Shown: positions 5,737 through 62,636 of the stretch, in pieces | How the letters are laid out: each line of letters begins with the position of its first letter | Position numbering within the stretch: the first letter of the stretch is position 1 | From: Urbifossiella limnaea | GTDB lineage: Bacteria; Planctomycetota; Planctomycetia; Gemmatales; Gemmataceae | Assembly: GCF_007747215.1 (NCBI RefSeq) | Contig: NZ_CP036273.1 | Span: 3,208,322 to 3,272,321, forward strand | Direction of reading: 5' to 3' | DNA length: 64,000 nt | Notes under the pieces: generated by a model | Seen by the model: only the letters and a program-made list of their open reading frames with translations | Databases searched by the model: none | What the model was told of the DNA's origin: nothing | Translations under genes and position numbers: made by a program

Positions 5737-5781
5737 GCGGACGCTTGCGGCTTCGCGTTCGGCGAAGCCGCAAGCGTCCGC
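5737..5781. terminator. Long hairpin after the cysA-like gene
   Basis: A 20-bp perfect inverted repeat (5737-5756 with 5762-5781) around a 5-nt loop, 21 bp after the cysA stop. There is no clear T tract. It is read as a terminator or transcript-end stabiliser. Confidence 0.65.
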
Positions 5782-10592: not shown

Positions 10593-10679
10593 GCGGGCTC
10601 ACCCGGGCGGGGACGTGACGGGGGACGGCGCTGCACTTCATTATCGGAGAGCGCCACGCGGAAACAACAAGAGTCTCCC

Positions 10680-10751
10680 CGAGCCGGCGGCGTCAGCCGT
10701 CGGAGCCTTCCGCAAGCGCCGCAGACTACGACGGCTGACGACGCCGGCTCG
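10680..10751. terminator. Long imperfect hairpin after EF-G-like gene
   Basis: 23-nt arms (10680-10702 and 10729-10751) are complementary except for one mismatch, around a 26-nt loop. It lies 6 bp past the EF-G-like stop on the minus strand. It probably ends that transcript and insulates the exbB operon. Confidence 0.65.
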
Positions 10752-10757
10752 GTGCGG

Positions 10758-20235: not shown

Positions 20236-20267
20236 CGAAGCCCACCCGCCGCGGCGGGTGGGCTTCG
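20236..20267 (-). terminator. Terminator after EF-Tu-like gene
   Basis: A perfect 15-bp stem (20236-20250 / 20253-20267) with a 2-nt loop, followed on the minus strand by TTCCTTTC. It lies 6 bp after the EF-Tu-like stop. Confidence 0.8.
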
Positions 20268-51682: not shown

Positions 51683-51763
51683 GGGACTTTGGGACGTGGA
51701 GACTGTGGGACTGGTGAAGGGTTTCCGTCCCTGTGTCCCACGGCCCCCTCGTCCCAAAGTCCC
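51683..51763. terminator. Long branched hairpin
   Basis: Perfect 14-bp outer arms (51683-51696 / 51750-51763) with an inner pairing GTGGGA / TCCCAC. It lies 4 bp past the stop of the enolase-superfamily gene (minus strand) and between it and the hpf promoter. The arms contain GGGACTTTGGGAC, similar to the motif repeated in the island. Confidence 0.65.
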
Positions 51764-55884: not shown

Positions 55885-55892
55885 ACGCCATC

Positions 55893-55973
55893 GAGCGGGG
55901 TCGCGTCAGCGCCCCGTGCGTACCCGAGACTGGACGTACTGCGTAAGCACGGGGCGCTGACGCGACCCCGCTC
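55893..55973. terminator. 27-bp perfect hairpin between two hydrolase genes
   Basis: Arms 55893-55919 and 55947-55973 are fully complementary over 27 bp with a 27-nt loop. It lies 9 bp after one stop and 13 bp before the next start. A strong terminator or RNA stabiliser; no T tract. Confidence 0.7.
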
Positions 55974-55986
55974 GGCGGGTGATCCG

Positions 55987-57744
55987 ATGCGCCGCGTCAC
56001 GCTCCTGATCGTTCTGACCCTGCTCGTCGTCGTAGTCGCGACTAGCGTCTGGTACTTCACCCGCCGCGGCCCCGCGCCCAACGGCCTCGTCCCCGACGGC
56101 ACCCCGACTGGCCCCGGCCGGCTCGTCGTCGTCGTCGTGTTCGACCAGTTCCGCGGCGACTACCTCGCCCACTGGGCCGAGCACTTCGGCCCCGACGGGT
56201 TCGCCCGCCTCCAGCGCGAGGGCGTGTGGTACGCCGACGCCCACTTCCCCTACGCCTGCACGTCCACCGGGCCGGGTCACGCCAGCATCGCCACCGGTGC
56301 TCCGCCGTCGGCACACGGCGTCGTCGAGAACGACTGGTACGACCGGAAGGCCGCCGCCCGCGTTTACTGCGCCCAGCCCGACCGCGCCCACGACCGTGTC
56401 CCGCCGCTGCTCGTCGGCGGGCAGCCGGCGCGCGGCAGCGGCCTCGGCTTCGGCCCCGACCGCGTCATGGTCGAAACCCTCGCCGACCGCCTGCGCGTCG
56501 CCACCGGCGGCAAGGGGCGGGTCGTCGTGCTCTCGATCAAGGACCGCTCGGCCGCGATGCTGGGCGGCAAACAGCCGGACGCCGCCTACTGCTTCGACAC
56601 GCGCGACGGCCGCTTCCACACCGGCAGCAACTACCGGCCACAGCCGCACCCGTGGGTCGAGGAGTTCAACGCCTCCGGTACCGCGACCCGGTGGGTCGGC
56701 AAGACGTGGGAGCGGCTGCGCCCCGACCTGAACTACGACGCGCTCGCCGGCAAGGACGACGCCCCCGGCGAGGGGTACGGGGCGAAGCAGGGGCGTAAGT
56801 TCCCGCACCCGATGAGCGACGAGGAGGCCGCCGGCCCGCGCTACTTCGCCTCGGTGGAAACGTCGCCGTTCGGCAACGAGCTGCTGCTCGAACTGGCGAA
56901 GCAGGCCGTGACCGCGGAGAAACTCGGCAACGGCGAAGCGGCCGACCTGCTGTGCCTGAGCTTCTCGTCGAACGACCTCGTGGGCCACCAGTGGGGGCCG
57001 GACTCGCACGAGGTGCTGGACATCACGCTCCGCTCCGACCGGCTCATGGCCGACCTGCTCACGTTCCTCGACACCACGGTCGGTAAGGGCCGGCACACGG
57101 TCGTCGTGACCGCCGACCACGGCATCTGCCCGATCCCGGAGGGGAAGAGGCTGCAACGGGCGGAGCGGCTGTCGGTGAACGCACTGCTGCCGGGGCTGCC
57201 CGCGGCGCTGGACGAGGTGTTCGGCCCCGCCCCGACCGGCCTCACGCGCTGGCTCGAACTCGACGGCAAGGACGCGCAACAGGTGTGGCCGTGGGTGTAC
57301 CTCAACCACGCGGCGATCCGCGCCCGCGGGGCGGACCTGGACAAGGTGGCCGACTTCGCCGCGCAGTGGCTCGGCAACCGCCACAACTCGCAGCTGGTGG
57401 CCTTCACCCGCAAGCAGATCGAGACGGGCACGCTGCCGCCCGGCGCCGGCCCCGAGTTGCGACCGCTGCTGGAGCAGGTGAAGCTCGCGTACCACGCCGA
57501 CCGCTGCGGCGACATCATCGTGATCCCGCAGCCCGGCGTGCTGGTGACGGGCTACGCCGAGGGGACGAGCCACGGCAGCCCGCACCCGTACGACACGCAC
57601 GTGCCGGTGCTCGCCGCGGGGCAGGGGGTTCCGGCGCTCGGGAAACAAGACCGGCGGGCGTCGGCGCTGCTAGTGGCGCCGATCGCAGCGAAGGCGCTGG
57701 GCATCTCCCCACCCGAAGCCGCGCGAGAACCTCTGACGTGGTGA
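55987..57744 (+). CDS. Alkaline phosphatase/phosphodiesterase (PafA/NPP-like), membrane-anchored
   Basis: A 585-residue enzyme with an N-terminal membrane anchor (about 4-24, LLIVLTLLVVVVATSVWYF). Metal and active-site motifs of the alkaline phosphatase superfamily are present: Asp in VVVFDQFRGDY, the nucleophile Thr in TSTGPGHASIATG (about 95), SFSSNDLVGHQWGPDS with Asp and His, VTADHG, and His in SHGSPHPYDTHVPV. The spacing is closest to PafA-like phosphatases that hydrolyse phosphate mono- or diesters in the periplasm. The gene is followed by an 82-bp palindrome. Confidence 0.9.
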   Translation: MRRVTLLIVLTLLVVVVATSVWYFTRRGPAPNGLVPDGTPTGPGRLVVVVVFDQFRGDYLAHWAEHFGPDGFARLQREGVWYADAHFPYACTSTGPGHASIATGAPPSAHGVVENDWYDRKAAARVYCAQPDRAHDRVPPLLVGGQPARGSGLGFGPDRVMVETLADRLRVATGGKGRVVVLSIKDRSAAMLGGKQPDAAYCFDTRDGRFHTGSNYRPQPHPWVEEFNASGTATRWVGKTWERLRPDLNYDALAGKDDAPGEGYGAKQGRKFPHPMSDEEAAGPRYFASVETSPFGNELLLELAKQAVTAEKLGNGEAADLLCLSFSSNDLVGHQWGPDSHEVLDITLRSDRLMADLLTFLDTTVGKGRHTVVVTADHGICPIPEGKRLQRAERLSVNALLPGLPAALDEVFGPAPTGLTRWLELDGKDAQQVWPWVYLNHAAIRARGADLDKVADFAAQWLGNRHNSQLVAFTRKQIETGTLPPGAGPELRPLLEQVKLAYHADRCGDIIVIPQPGVLVTGYAEGTSHGSPHPYDTHVPVLAAGQGVPALGKQDRRASALLVAPIAAKALGISPPEAAREPLTW

Positions 57745-57756
57745 CTGGCCCGGAAT

Positions 57757-57838
57757 GACCAATTCCCAATGACCCACCAATGACCAAGGAATTCCCGCGG
57801 GAATTCCTTGGTCATTGGTGGGTCATTGGGAATTGGTC
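57757..57838. repeat. 82-bp perfect palindrome
   Basis: Positions 57757-57797 and 57798-57838 are exact reverse complements (41 + 41) with no loop, centred on CCCGCGGG. Each arm contains AATGACC motifs and is AT-richer than the genome. The right end touches an IS66 fragment. It lies 12 bp after the phosphatase stop. Confidence 0.95.
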
Positions 57839-58053
57839 CCTCGGTAACCCTTCAGCCTCCTGAACTGGCTTTCTCCGGCAGCGGTGGCAGCGCGTCCCGG
57901 TGGTGGCGTAGGCCCGCAGGGCGTCGAGGATCGTTTGCAGCGGGTCCAGGCCCCGGTTCTTCCGGGTCCGGCACACGCTCATCCGGACGCCCCGCGTCGC
58001 CGCCCCCCGCGCGCCCTTGCTCCCGTAACTCGCCTTCCGCATCCGCACCGCCG
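57836..58053 (-). pseudogene. IS66 transposase fragment
   Basis: A 218-bp stretch about 97% identical to 61130-61345, the C-terminal end of the nearby IS66 transposase (VRMRKASYGSKGARGAATRG, LDPLQTILDALRAYATTGT). Compared with that copy it has 2 extra bases that break the final codons but retains a base that the other has lost. It begins at GTCCCTCGGTAACCC next to the palindrome and ends where a 28-bp CCGG-rich palindrome (58055-58082) starts. A remnant only. Confidence 0.88.
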
Positions 58054-58112
58054 TCCGCGGCCGGCCGGCCGGCCGGCCGCGGTCGGCGGCGTGATCCATC
58101 GACCACGCTCCC

Positions 58113-59483
58113 CTACTGCCGGAGGTCCACGCACACGACCTCGCGGTCGTTCCGCACGAACATGCACTTGTTCGCGTAGGCCGGGTGGACCCACACGACC
58201 TTCCGCCCGGCGCCGGCCATCGTGTTCGTCGGCTCGATCACGTTCGCCCGGTCGATCTCCGCATAGCCGGCCTTCGTCAGTTTGGCGATGATCAGGTCGC
58301 CCTGCTCGTTGAACAGGAAGTAGCGGCCACCCTGCGGCGTCAGGAAGGCGTTGCTCCACCGCTCGCTCCCGGCCGGCTCGTCGCTCGCCGCCACCTTCGC
58401 CGGGGTCCGCTTGCCGCGGGTCGCCTGCATCGTCTCCCACAGCCGCTTGCCGCTCGGAACGTCCAGGCCGCGGAGTTGGCCGTAGCTGCACACGCCGTAC
58501 GCGGTGTCGCCGTCGATCACGGGCGTCGGCATGATCGAGCTCAGGTCCGTCGTCTGGCTCGCCGCCTCGCCCTTCGTCTTGCTCTTCCACACCACGTCGG
58601 CCTTGTCCGCGCCCACCTTCAGGAACATCGACCCGTTGTAGAACGACGTGACGAACAGCCCGTCGGTGCCGACCTTCCGCGCCATCGGGGCGGTGAGGGC
58701 GAACTTCACGTCGAAGTCCTGCTTCCACAGCCGCTTCCCGGTCGCGGGTTCGAGCCCGACGACGGCCTTGCTGTGCCAGACGACGATCTGCCGCTTGCCG
58801 CCGAACTCGTGGGCCACCGGAGCGCTGTAGCCGAAGTCGCCGGCAGTGCTCTGAGACGCCCAGACCTCCTTGCCGGTGTGCTTGTCGAAGGCGATCACCA
58901 TGCGGTCGTTCGTCCCGCCGACGAGGCAGACGAGCCGGTCGCCGTCGATGAGCGGGTGGGCGGCGTGCCCCCAGATCTGGGTGCCGGCCCCGTAGTCGCG
59001 GATGAAGTTCTTGGCCCACACCAGCTTCCCGGTCGCGGCGTCGAGGCAGCGGAGGTCGCCCATCGCCCCGAGGGCGTAGACCTTCCCGCCGTCCACCGTG
59101 GCGTTGGCCCGCGGCCCGCCGGGGTAGCCGATCCGGTACTCGACCGGGTAGGCGTCGGCCCACAGCTCCTTGCCGGTGGCGGCGTCGCGGCAGACCAGGC
59201 GCTCCTCGCCGCGGAACTCGCCCTTGGCGAATCCGCCGTCCGGTAGCTTGTCCTTCGGCATGAAGTCGGGGACGTAGACCTTCCCGGCCGCCACCGACGG
59301 CCCCGAGTAGCCCGGCCCGCACGGCTGCCGCCACAGCACCTTCGGCCCGCCGGCGGGGAACTTGTCGAGGACGCCGTCCTCGCGCCAGACGCCGTCGCGC
59401 TGCGGCCCCATCCACTGCGGCCAGTCGTCGGCGCGGGCGGCGGTCGCGGCGGCGGCCGCGACGAGAACGAGTGCGTAGCGCAT
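58113..59483 (-). CDS. Secreted PQQ-type beta-propeller protein
   Basis: A 456-residue exported protein. Signal peptide to about residue 18, then WPQWMGPQRDGVWREDGVL, the usual opening of PQQ-like/quinoprotein beta-propeller proteins in planctomycetes. Repeats of the LVCRDAATGKELW, LRCLDAATGKLVW, VIAFDKHTGKEVW and VVGLEPATGKRLW type form the blades. It lacks the dehydrogenase calcium/PQQ residues I would expect, so a binding or scaffold role is more likely than catalysis. It lies 152 bp from the divergent ffh. Confidence 0.85.
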   Translation of the reverse strand: MRYALVLVAAAAATAARADDWPQWMGPQRDGVWREDGVLDKFPAGGPKVLWRQPCGPGYSGPSVAAGKVYVPDFMPKDKLPDGGFAKGEFRGEERLVCRDAATGKELWADAYPVEYRIGYPGGPRANATVDGGKVYALGAMGDLRCLDAATGKLVWAKNFIRDYGAGTQIWGHAAHPLIDGDRLVCLVGGTNDRMVIAFDKHTGKEVWASQSTAGDFGYSAPVAHEFGGKRQIVVWHSKAVVGLEPATGKRLWKQDFDVKFALTAPMARKVGTDGLFVTSFYNGSMFLKVGADKADVVWKSKTKGEAASQTTDLSSIMPTPVIDGDTAYGVCSYGQLRGLDVPSGKRLWETMQATRGKRTPAKVAASDEPAGSERWSNAFLTPQGGRYFLFNEQGDLIIAKLTKAGYAEIDRANVIEPTNTMAGAGRKVVWVHPAYANKCMFVRNDREVVCVDLRQ

Positions 59484-59635: not shown

Positions 59636-61078
59636 ATGTTCGAAGGCATTACCAAGTCGCTGACCGAGGCGTTCAAGAAGTTCCGCGGCGGTAAGCTCAC
59701 CGCCGAGAACGTCCGCGACGGCCTGCGCGAGGTCCGCCGCGCGTTCATCGAGGCCGACGTCAACTACGACGTGGTCACCGACTTCATCGGCCGGGTCGAG
59801 GCGAAGGCCGTGGGCCAGGAAGTCCTGGCCCGCGTCAACCCGTCCGACCAGATCATCAAGATCGTCCACGACGAGCTCGTGGCCACGATGGGGCCGGTGG
59901 ACCCGAAAATCCCCCAGCGCGCCGACCGGCCCGTCGTGCTGATGCTGTGCGGCCTCCAGGGCGCCGGCAAAACGACCACCGCCGCCAAGCTCGCGCTCAC
60001 GCTCCAGTCGCGCGGCCGCAAGCCGCTCCTCGCCGCGGCCGACTTGCAGCGCCCCGGTGCCGTCGAGCAGCTGCGCACGCTCGGCGAGCAGATCGGCGTC
60101 CCGGTCTACTCCGAAGCCACGAACCCCGTGGACGTGTGCCGCAACGCCGTCGCCGAGGCGAAGAGGACGCTGTGCGACGCCGTCATCCTCGACACCGCCG
60201 GCCGGCTGCAGATCGACGACGACCTGATGGCGGAGCTGCAGCGGATCGACAAGCTGGTGAAGCCGGACGAGTGCTACCTGGTCGTGGACGCGATGATCGG
60301 CCAGGAGGCGGCGAACGTCGCCAAGGCGTTCAACGACGCGCTGGAGCTCAACGCCTGCATCCTCACCAAGCTCGACGGCGACGCCCGCGGCGGCGCCGCC
60401 ATGTCGATCAAGGGCGTGACCGGCGTGCCGGTGAAGTTCATCGGCGTCGGCGAGAAGGTGGACAAGCTCGAAGACTTCGTCCCCGAGCGGATGGCCGGCC
60501 GGATCATGGGCCAGGGCGACCTGATGGGGGTGGTCGAGAAGATCGCCAGCATCCAGTCGCAGGTGTCCGAGGAGGAACTGAAGAAGCAGCAGGAGGCGCT
60601 GACCAAGGGGCAGTTCACGCTGGACATGTTCCGCCAGCAGTTCGCCACCATCGCCAAGATGGGGATGAAGGACATGCTCGGCCGGATGCCGGGGATGAGC
60701 GAGATGATCCCCGAGGGCGAAGACCCCGAGGAGGCGCTGAAGCGCGTCCAGGGGATGATCGACTCGATGACGAAGAAGGAGAAGGACGACCCGGACATCA
60801 TCGACACGCCGCGCCGCCGCCGCATCGCCAGGGGGGCCGGCGTCGAGCCGCACGAGGTGAACCAGTTCCTGAAGCAGTTCGAGCAGGTGCGGTTCCTGAT
60901 GAAGCAGATGGCGAGCATGTCGATGTGGCAGCGGCTGAAGATGGTGACGGGCCTCGGGAAGGCGGGGGCGTTCATGCCCGGCGGGATGGACATGCTGAAG
61001 ACGAAGGGCGACACCGGCACCCGCAAGAGCGCCAAGCAGCGGGCCGAGGAGCGGAAGAAGAAGAAGAAGAAGAAGTAG
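59636..61078 (+). CDS. ffh: Signal recognition particle protein Ffh
   Basis: A 480-residue SRP54 GTPase that delivers nascent membrane proteins to FtsY. N domain, then G domain with GLQGAGKTTTAAKL, DTAGRLQID and TKLDGDARGGAAMS. The methionine-rich M domain follows with GQFTLDMFRQQF and GMKDMLGRMPGMSEM. It ends in a basic poly-lysine tail of nine residues (EERKKKKKKK end). The ATG at 59636 is used; the upstream in-frame GTG at 59552 adds a non-homologous extension. Next downstream is a degenerate IS66 in opposite direction. Confidence 0.97.
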   Translation: MFEGITKSLTEAFKKFRGGKLTAENVRDGLREVRRAFIEADVNYDVVTDFIGRVEAKAVGQEVLARVNPSDQIIKIVHDELVATMGPVDPKIPQRADRPVVLMLCGLQGAGKTTTAAKLALTLQSRGRKPLLAAADLQRPGAVEQLRTLGEQIGVPVYSEATNPVDVCRNAVAEAKRTLCDAVILDTAGRLQIDDDLMAELQRIDKLVKPDECYLVVDAMIGQEAANVAKAFNDALELNACILTKLDGDARGGAAMSIKGVTGVPVKFIGVGEKVDKLEDFVPERMAGRIMGQGDLMGVVEKIASIQSQVSEEELKKQQEALTKGQFTLDMFRQQFATIAKMGMKDMLGRMPGMSEMIPEGEDPEEALKRVQGMIDSMTKKEKDDPDIIDTPRRRRIARGAGVEPHEVNQFLKQFEQVRFLMKQMASMSMWQRLKMVTGLGKAGAFMPGGMDMLKTKGDTGTRKSAKQRAEERKKKKKKK

Positions 61079-61136
61079 CGGTAATAGAGATTACTGGAAG
61101 GAAGAGACCCCTGAATTCGTCGCGAGTTGTCCCTCG

Positions 61137-62636
61137 GTAACCCTTCAGCCTCCTGAACTGGCTTTCTCCGGCAGCGGTGGCAGCGTCCCGGTGGTGGGGT
61201 AGGCCCGCAGGGCGTCGAGGATCGTTTGCAGCGGGTCCAGGTCCCGGTTGTTCCGGGTCCGGCACACGCTCTCCGGACGCCCCGCGTCGCCGCCCCCCGC
61301 GCGCCCTGGCTCCCGTGGCTCGCCTTCCGCATCCGCACCGCCGGCCGGACCTCCCGCTCGGCGTGGTTGTTCGACGACGGCACCCCCTCGAACTCCACGA
61401 ACGTGAGCAACTCCTCACCGTACTTGCGCAACCGCTTCGCCAGCCGCCGGGCGTGCGGGTTCGACCAGTCGCCGATGCTCAGATCGACGACCCGGGCGTG
61501 GAGCCGCGACAGCTTCAGGCCGTACTCGTCCGACGGCTTCACCCGGCGCGTCAGTTCCAGCCGTACGGCGTCGGCTTACACCCGCCGCAACCGCCGGGCG
61601 AAGTCGGGCCAGTCGCCCCCCGCGTCCGACCCCGCGCCCATCTCCTTCAGTTCCCGCAGCAGGTGCGGCCAGCACTTCTGCTTGGCCCGCCCGACCGCGT
61701 CGTACGCCGCCCAGAAGTCCGTCACCAGCAGACCCGCGAACTCCTCGACGAAGAACGGGTCGAGGGCCGGGTGGCCGCGGGACTCGTCGATCCGGTCGTA
61801 CGTGGCGTCGGCGCCGGTGAAGCACCACCGCCAGTGCGTCCGTCCTTCGACGCGCCACCCGGTCTCGTCGGCGTGGGGGACGCCGGCGTCGAGGCCGTGG
61901 CGGTGGACCTGCTCGTACCACGGCCCCAGGACGTCGCCCCGGCGGTGCCACATCTGGGTCCGCCCGCCGTCGGTGATCGGGAGGTGCAGGTGGCCGTTGA
62001 AGACGTCCACGATCTGGCGGGTCGTGACCCCCAGCCCGTAGTGGAGCCCGGCGGACAAGACGACGGTGCGGTTGCCGACGGTGCAGCCGGGGAGGGCGTC
62101 GGGGACCGGGGGCTCGACCGGCTTCCGGCCGCACGGGCACCAGTCGCGGTGGATGGTGTGCTCGGTCAGCTCGGGCCGGAGGTCGTCGGGGACGTCCTCG
62201 ACGAGGCGGGTGCGGGTCCGTCCGGTGCGGGTGCGCCGCCCACCGCAGTCGGGGCAGGCGGGGAGTTGGTGCGACTGGTGGCGGTCGATGTGCTCGGGTC
62301 GCGGGCGTGGGGTGCCGGGGTGGCCGGGCACGGCCCGGCGTTTCTTCCGCGGGGGCGTGGCCGACGGCCTGGCATACGGCGGGACGGTGCCCGGGGGCGT
62401 GTGGGCACCGCCGGCGGGCGCGGGTGAGCCGAGGGCGGTGCAGAGTTGGAGGAGGAAGAAGATGGCGGCGGCCCGGTCGCGGGGCAACGCCGCCTCGGCC
62501 TGCCCGGCGGTCAGGGTGCCGGCGCGGAAGGCCGCGACGAAGGCGTCATCGAGGATCGGGGCCACGGCGGGCATGCCCGCGGTTCTCGGGATCCCGCCGA
62601 GAAGCGCAAGCCCTGTTCTGGAGGCTGAAGGGTTAC
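61137..62636. mobile_element. IS66-family element, single-gene, degenerate
   Basis: A 1500-bp element with perfect 17-bp terminal inverted repeats GTAACCCTTCAGCCTCC (61137-61153; inverted at 62620-62636). No 8-bp target duplication is recognisable at the flanks. It contains one transposase gene with no accessory tnpA/tnpB, as in the ISBst12-like group. Inserted between ffh and the PBP4 gene, 12 bp after the latter's stop. Confidence 0.87.
61145..62574 (-). pseudogene. IS66 transposase (two lesions)
   Basis: About 476 codons from the ATG at 62574. The zinc-ribbon part (CPDCGG, CPCGRK) and DDE core (HADETGWRVEG, LLVTDFWAAYD, NNHAEREVRP with the final Glu) are recognisable. An in-frame TAA at 61576-61578 cuts the protein after ARRLRRV, while the following frame continues ADAVRLELTRRVKPSDEY, as in intact relatives. 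A 1-base deletion near 61270, visible against the fragment at 57,836, shifts the last 45 codons. No full-length enzyme can be made. Confidence 0.88.

Follow-up and report, generated by a model that had tools for sequence, protein, structure and literature searches.

Long hairpins at gene ends of the planctomycete Urbifossiella limnaea: a loop-less 82-bp palindrome and the AATGACC family to which it belongs

The perfect palindrome found at positions 57757-57838 of the DNA analysed here (64,000 nucleotides, hereafter the window, corresponding to positions 3208322-3272321 of the complete, single-contig genome of 7,795,793 bp) is one member of a family of long hairpins with arms built from AATGACC heptamers; the copies lie at or close behind stop codons, belong to a population of gene-end inverted repeats strongly enriched over shuffled sequence, have arms that match each other within a copy, and are frequently replaced at the orthologous gene ends of related species. 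On balance, the element is probably a hairpin marking mRNA 3' ends in both directions rather than a canonical terminator; transcription through it, a function at the 3' end and a mechanism copying one arm onto the other are proposed to account for these observations. The genome-wide figures given below rest on model searches, pattern searches and 20-kb samples.

The palindrome and its surroundings

As originally predicted, the second 41-nt arm (57798-57838) is the exact reverse complement of the first (57757-57797) and follows it with 0 nt in between; with 51% GC the arms are indeed AT-richer than the window (71% GC), and the repeated AATGACC units ascribed to them are present, the exact 9-mer CCAATGACC occurring four times in the window and every time inside the palindrome. 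The inverted-repeat scan assigns the palindrome a score of 41, and Markov-shuffled copies of 584 kb of the genome contained no inverted repeat with a score of at least 16; the predicted RNA fold has a free energy of -81.7 kcal/mol (z = -13). A covariance model trained on 16 copies of the family, this one included, scores the whole element (57751-57844) at 98.1 bits on the + strand and 96.4 bits on the - strand.

Table 1. Coordinates in the window of the element, its neighbours and other gene-end hairpins.
Feature	Position	Strand	Remark
Whole element, covariance-model limits	57751..57844	.	G000:C1:3266072-3266165; right-most heptamer truncated
AATGACC heptamer, outermost in left arm	57754..57760	+	
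AATGACC heptamer, left arm	57768..57774	+	
AATGACC heptamer, left arm near centre	57779..57785	+	
AATGACC heptamer, right arm near centre	57810..57816	-	
AATGACC heptamer, right arm	57821..57827	-	
Type I phosphodiesterase / nucleotide pyrophosphatase gene (PF01663), upstream	55987..57744	+	stop TGA 57742-57744
PQQ-type beta-propeller gene (PF13360, PF01011), downstream, convergent	58113..59483	-	
IS66 transposase 3' remnant; abuts the element and clips its right end	57836..58057	-	similarity to 61129-61347
Long near-perfect gene-end hairpin, unrelated sequence	55892..55974	.	7 nt past stop of 53899-55884
Gene-end hairpin, GGGAC-word type	51683..51763	.	stop 4 nt away
Gene-end hairpin	10679..10752	.	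stop 5 nt away
Gene-end perfect palindrome, 32 bp	20236..20267	.	stop 6 nt away
Gene-end hairpin GCGGACGCTTGCGGCTTCGC	5737..5781	.	stop 21 nt away

The palindrome is located between two convergent genes, coding for the PF01663 phosphodiesterase and the PQQ propeller (Table 1), and begins 12 nt after the stop TGA of the former. The neighbouring IS66 fragment that had been noticed is confirmed: 57836-58057 is 95% identical to 61129-61347, which lies in an ORF matching PF03050. According to the limits of the family model, the right terminal heptamer of the element, GGTCATT, is cut at GGTC by this remnant, which clipped the right end of the element and is not part of it. The two IS66 3' remnants, 3.3 kb apart, both lie directly behind gene ends, those of the phosphodiesterase gene and of an SRP54/Ffh gene whose own 3' end is an extended stretch of lysine codons (61047-61078). 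Where the likeness of the two remnants ends lies another inverted repeat lacking a loop (58048-58089, 21+21, 95%).

A palindrome both perfect and loop-less raises the suspicion, voiced in the original prediction, that the assembly folded a single arm back onto itself. Such an artefact is not credible, and its probability is negligible, because the same structure, with different loops and different arm sequences, recurs at about 57 sites along one complete contig and is also present in independently assembled relatives, MAGs among them.

The AATGACC family and its position behind stop codons

When the genome is searched for the arm in single or inverted copies, the core CCAATGACCCACCAATGACC recurs, chiefly as inverted pairs, and the suggestion of a dispersed element is borne out: the covariance model yields 112 strand-matches that merge into 57 places. 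The consensus, in a modelling which took in copies up to ~140 nt, reads GGAATGACC-AATTCCC-AATGACC-CACC-AATGACC-AAGGA-loop-reverse complement. In those copies of the own genome that were read by script the loop measures from 0 to 59 nt, the copy at 57757-57838 being the shortest (0) and the others ranging from 7 to 59 nt.

Of the 61 Gemmataceae genomes sampled, 11 contain the family, and a scan of genome contigs for the core gave matches only in MAGs labelled Gemmataceae, Planctomycetia or Planctomycetota. A looser heptamer-hairpin pattern matches 18 of 294 planctomycete genomes, from several distant families, its reversed control giving 0 to 2 matches per genome; in these distant families too, heptamer hairpins are found at stop codons. 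In particular, in regions picked because they already contained the pattern, six of seven distant genomes outside the family (G298, G277, G159, G325, G225 and G047, not G163) have AATGAC hairpins that pass the scan threshold, the majority of them at gene ends, the low-GC G300 being considered apart. The latter, a planctomycete with 47% GC, contains at L350 (G300:C51) and at other matches of the looser pattern arrays of AATGACG heptamers together with AATGACT- and AATGTCC-type words, and no hairpin above the scan threshold was detected in the piece analysed. No Rfam match exceeded the gathering score among 10 loci containing the element, the locus had no BLAST match among the PLSDB plasmids, and a 20-mer scan of IMG/VR found none; the literature covered, from which most subscription papers are absent, holds neither a description of an AATGACC family nor the arm sequence, and the words of the other hairpin families led to unrelated papers only.

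Genes were called by a codon-usage predictor trained on the own genome. Of the 58 places considered (the 57 plus one half-copy), 33 are in tandem gaps, 17 in convergent ones and 7 in divergent ones, and one is within a predicted gene. An element is faced by 65 gene ends in all. The stop lies inside the element in 30 of them, usually as the TGA of AATGACC; in 31 it is at the edge, between 3 nt inside the element and 10 nt ahead of it, and in 4 it is farther off. The stop is thus inside the element or at most 10 nt from it in 61 of the 65 cases. As each heptamer unit shifts the frame by one base, an array offers TGA in all frames, a point made earlier for TAACTGA repeats (PMC4679880). Part of the 3' bias could be explained by avoidance of promoters.

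The family is not alone. In an unbiased 584 kb, consisting of the window and 26 20-kb pieces picked by coordinate, 67 near-perfect inverted repeats were counted, versus 0 after shuffling; they belong to several unrelated word families, lie mostly a few nucleotides behind a stop and show a strong bias to gene 3' ends (examples from the window are given in Table 1). Among gaps of 60-250 nt, 13 of 20 convergent, 31 of 125 tandem and 3 of 37 divergent ones are occupied (P = 1e-5 for the contrast of convergent with divergent gaps, P = 0.04 for that of tandem with divergent ones). The median distance separating the hairpin from the stop is 8 nt; that from the following start, measured in tandem gaps, is 32 nt. 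Both of the further families tested consist of inverted pairs (9 forward and 10 reverse in one, 33 + 33 in the other). Hairpins of this sort were also seen in pieces of G001, G002, G005, G069 and G076; none was found in the pieces of G006 and G013, in which few genes were called.

Turnover at orthologous gene ends and matching of the arms

The C-terminal parts of 22 element-bearing genes were searched in four congeners and the sequence following the stop was inspected. Where the gap was at least 60 nt, the orthologous ends, orthology being defined by the best C-terminal match rather than by two-neighbour synteny, carried the same family in 9 cases, an unrelated hairpin in 19 and none in 13; at ordinary gene ends of the same genomes a hairpin is present in 20 of 75 (P = 0.0015 for unrelated hairpins alone and 1.5e-5 overall). 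The family is kept, for instance, at 386470 in G001, G002 and G005, at 4292878 in G001 and G005, and at 6307369, 942447, 110870 and 5269229 in G001; a different long hairpin is found instead at 6828677 in all four species, at 7692791 and 6513269 in G001, and at 2719470 in G001, G002 and G005. At the locus of the palindrome itself, the orthologous end in G001 has by eye a weaker, imperfect hairpin falling below the count of the scan, and that in G005 has no hairpin. The 13 of 41 roomy orthologous ends devoid of a hairpin indicate that it is not essential. Across related species, the place behind the gene often continues to hold a hairpin although its sequence has given way to that of an unrelated one; this speaks for a signal working in both directions at the gene end, as opposed to chance or an assembly artefact.

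In the 30 full-length copies, the identity of the two arms inside a copy is 0.916, compared to 0.827 when arms are shuffled among copies; 0 of 2000 shuffles reached the within-copy value. In 26 well-kept copies, changes at core positions shared by both arms have a transversion to transition ratio of 11:5, and those confined to one arm of 5:13; although the changes are few and inheritance may account for some of the variants, this pattern agrees better with one arm being copied onto the other than with a stepwise repair through G-U pairs. The sense-strand mismatches of 114 tandem-gap hairpins are equal within error (G-U 32 vs A-C 27), so that in this set no selection at the RNA level is seen through a G-U bias, and pairing in RNA is not demonstrated by it; the E. 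coli control (G-U 9 : A-C 2) is too small to set the scale.

The original prediction had it that so unstable a palindrome implies tolerance, recent origin or a function. SbcD, which in E. coli makes up half of the palindrome nuclease, has its gene in this genome, so that its absence is not the source of any tolerance; a function, together with arm copying, is favoured by the evidence. In E. coli, template switching at quasipalindromes is well established (PMC7202029). A switch of this kind between the arms may restore their identity at the DNA level, and the perfect, loop-less copy at 57757-57838 would then be its extreme outcome.

Proposed function and relationship to known repeats

According to the proposed explanation, the element would form the last part of the upstream gene's transcript and, in convergent gaps, would be transcribed from the opposite side as well; the RNA would fold into a stem of ~40 bp marking and protecting the mRNA 3' end and possibly assisting a factor-dependent stop of transcription. 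The latter may be available, Rho being encoded: three Rho-like genes were detected (G000:C1:4165360-4166610, 1154202-1155446 and 573413-574504), two of which exceed the curated cut-off. By placing TGA in shifting frames, the heptamer arms could also supply the stop codon when a copy lands right at a gene's end. What is retained at the gene end would be the hairpin and not its letters, families being swapped between species. Against a two-way 3'-end hairpin it may be objected that 7 of the 58 copies sit in apparently divergent gaps and that the gene calls come from our own codon-usage predictor.

The very stable stem and its location behind stops and between convergent genes would equally suit a canonical bidirectional Rho-independent terminator, a reading that is improbable given that only 10 of 75 hairpin tails have at least 4 T in 8 nt, i.e. 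there is no U-tract; moreover, in another family (GACGGG...CCCGTCAAAAAA) the runs on the 3' side are of A, and in 20 kb of the window hairpins with a U-tract are at chance level (8 vs 7.6). A more serious contender, albeit an unlikely one, is that the family is selfish and non-autonomous, resembling MITEs or REPs: a transposase acting in trans would move it, and its copies would simply be tolerated directly behind stop codons. The copies are dispersed, they are present or absent at the same gene pair in different species (those at 287099 and 1868884 are missing in G001), and the genome has three Y1_Tnp genes (PF01797; G000:C1:118501-118836, 6914170-6914370 and 986477-986710). However, 55 copies give no signal of target-site duplication (3.29 vs 3.24 nt in shuffled pairs), AATGAC[CG] is absent from the ~1.5-kb flanks on each side of all three Y1_Tnp genes, the arms covary within copies, and unrelated hairpins are commoner at the same orthologous ends than at ordinary ones. 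The target-site duplication by which a MITE is recognised was accordingly not observed, and of the features of REP / REPtron systems the dispersed 3'-end palindromes are present, but not, within ~1.5-kb flanks, a Y1 (RAYT) transposase flanked by the palindrome. REP/BIME sequences are dispersed palindromic units found shortly after stop codons and are candidate mRNA 3'-end structures; the likeness lies in dispersed palindromes behind stops, the difference in the missing link here to RAYT-type (Y1_Tnp) transposases.

Short words in inverted pairs at gene ends also recall the neisserial DNA-uptake sequence, DUS, whose inverted pairs act as terminators (PMC2397512). That AATGACC serves as an uptake word is very improbable: the exact 9-mer is confined in the window to the palindrome, near-matches there are at chance (12 vs 10.2 expected) and, unlike DUS, the word shows no single-copy enrichment in the window and no U-tract accompanies it.

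Returning to the 3'-end hairpin, its closest relatives are the stem-loops described by Petrillo et al. 2006 (PMC1590033), which are stable, are concentrated at 3' ends and in convergent gaps, and in part form repeat families; the excess over shuffled sequence, the concentration at CDS 3' ends and in convergent gaps, and the occurrence of repeat families are shared, whereas the present stems are far longer and near-perfect, their arms are word arrays, and unrelated families replace one another at orthologous ends. The cyanobacterial STRR, dispersed intergenic 7-bp repeats capable of forming hairpins, for which a role in transcript stability or termination was suggested (PMC2670836), resemble by their description the dispersed heptamer arrays of the AATGACC family, most of which, unlike STRR, come as pairs of inverted arms linked to stop codons. 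The TAACTGA repeats of Beggiatoaceae are likewise intergenic heptamers yielding stops in three frames, but are direct repeats lying mainly directly upstream of start codons (PMC4679880). The kind of element is therefore known. Its novelty seems to lie in the way three features come together: arms made of word arrays, a tie to stop codons, and the swapping of unrelated hairpins at orthologous ends.

A broader hypothesis, put forward tentatively and with less confidence than the 3'-end role, is that planctomycetes possess a widespread class of interchangeable gene-end hairpins, selection keeping a long two-way hairpin behind particular genes, the word families that spread in a given lineage repeatedly overwriting its sequence, and arm copying at the DNA level maintaining its near-perfection. 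If it is true that the slot outlives the sequence, selection would be acting on a gene-end structure invisible to sequence alignment, and the many natural replacements at one gene end would be usable for probing the function of 3'-end hairpins. The family is also a natural system for the study of palindrome arm correction in a genome encoding SbcD, and it suggests how transcription units of planctomycetes may finish where no U-tract terminators are apparent.
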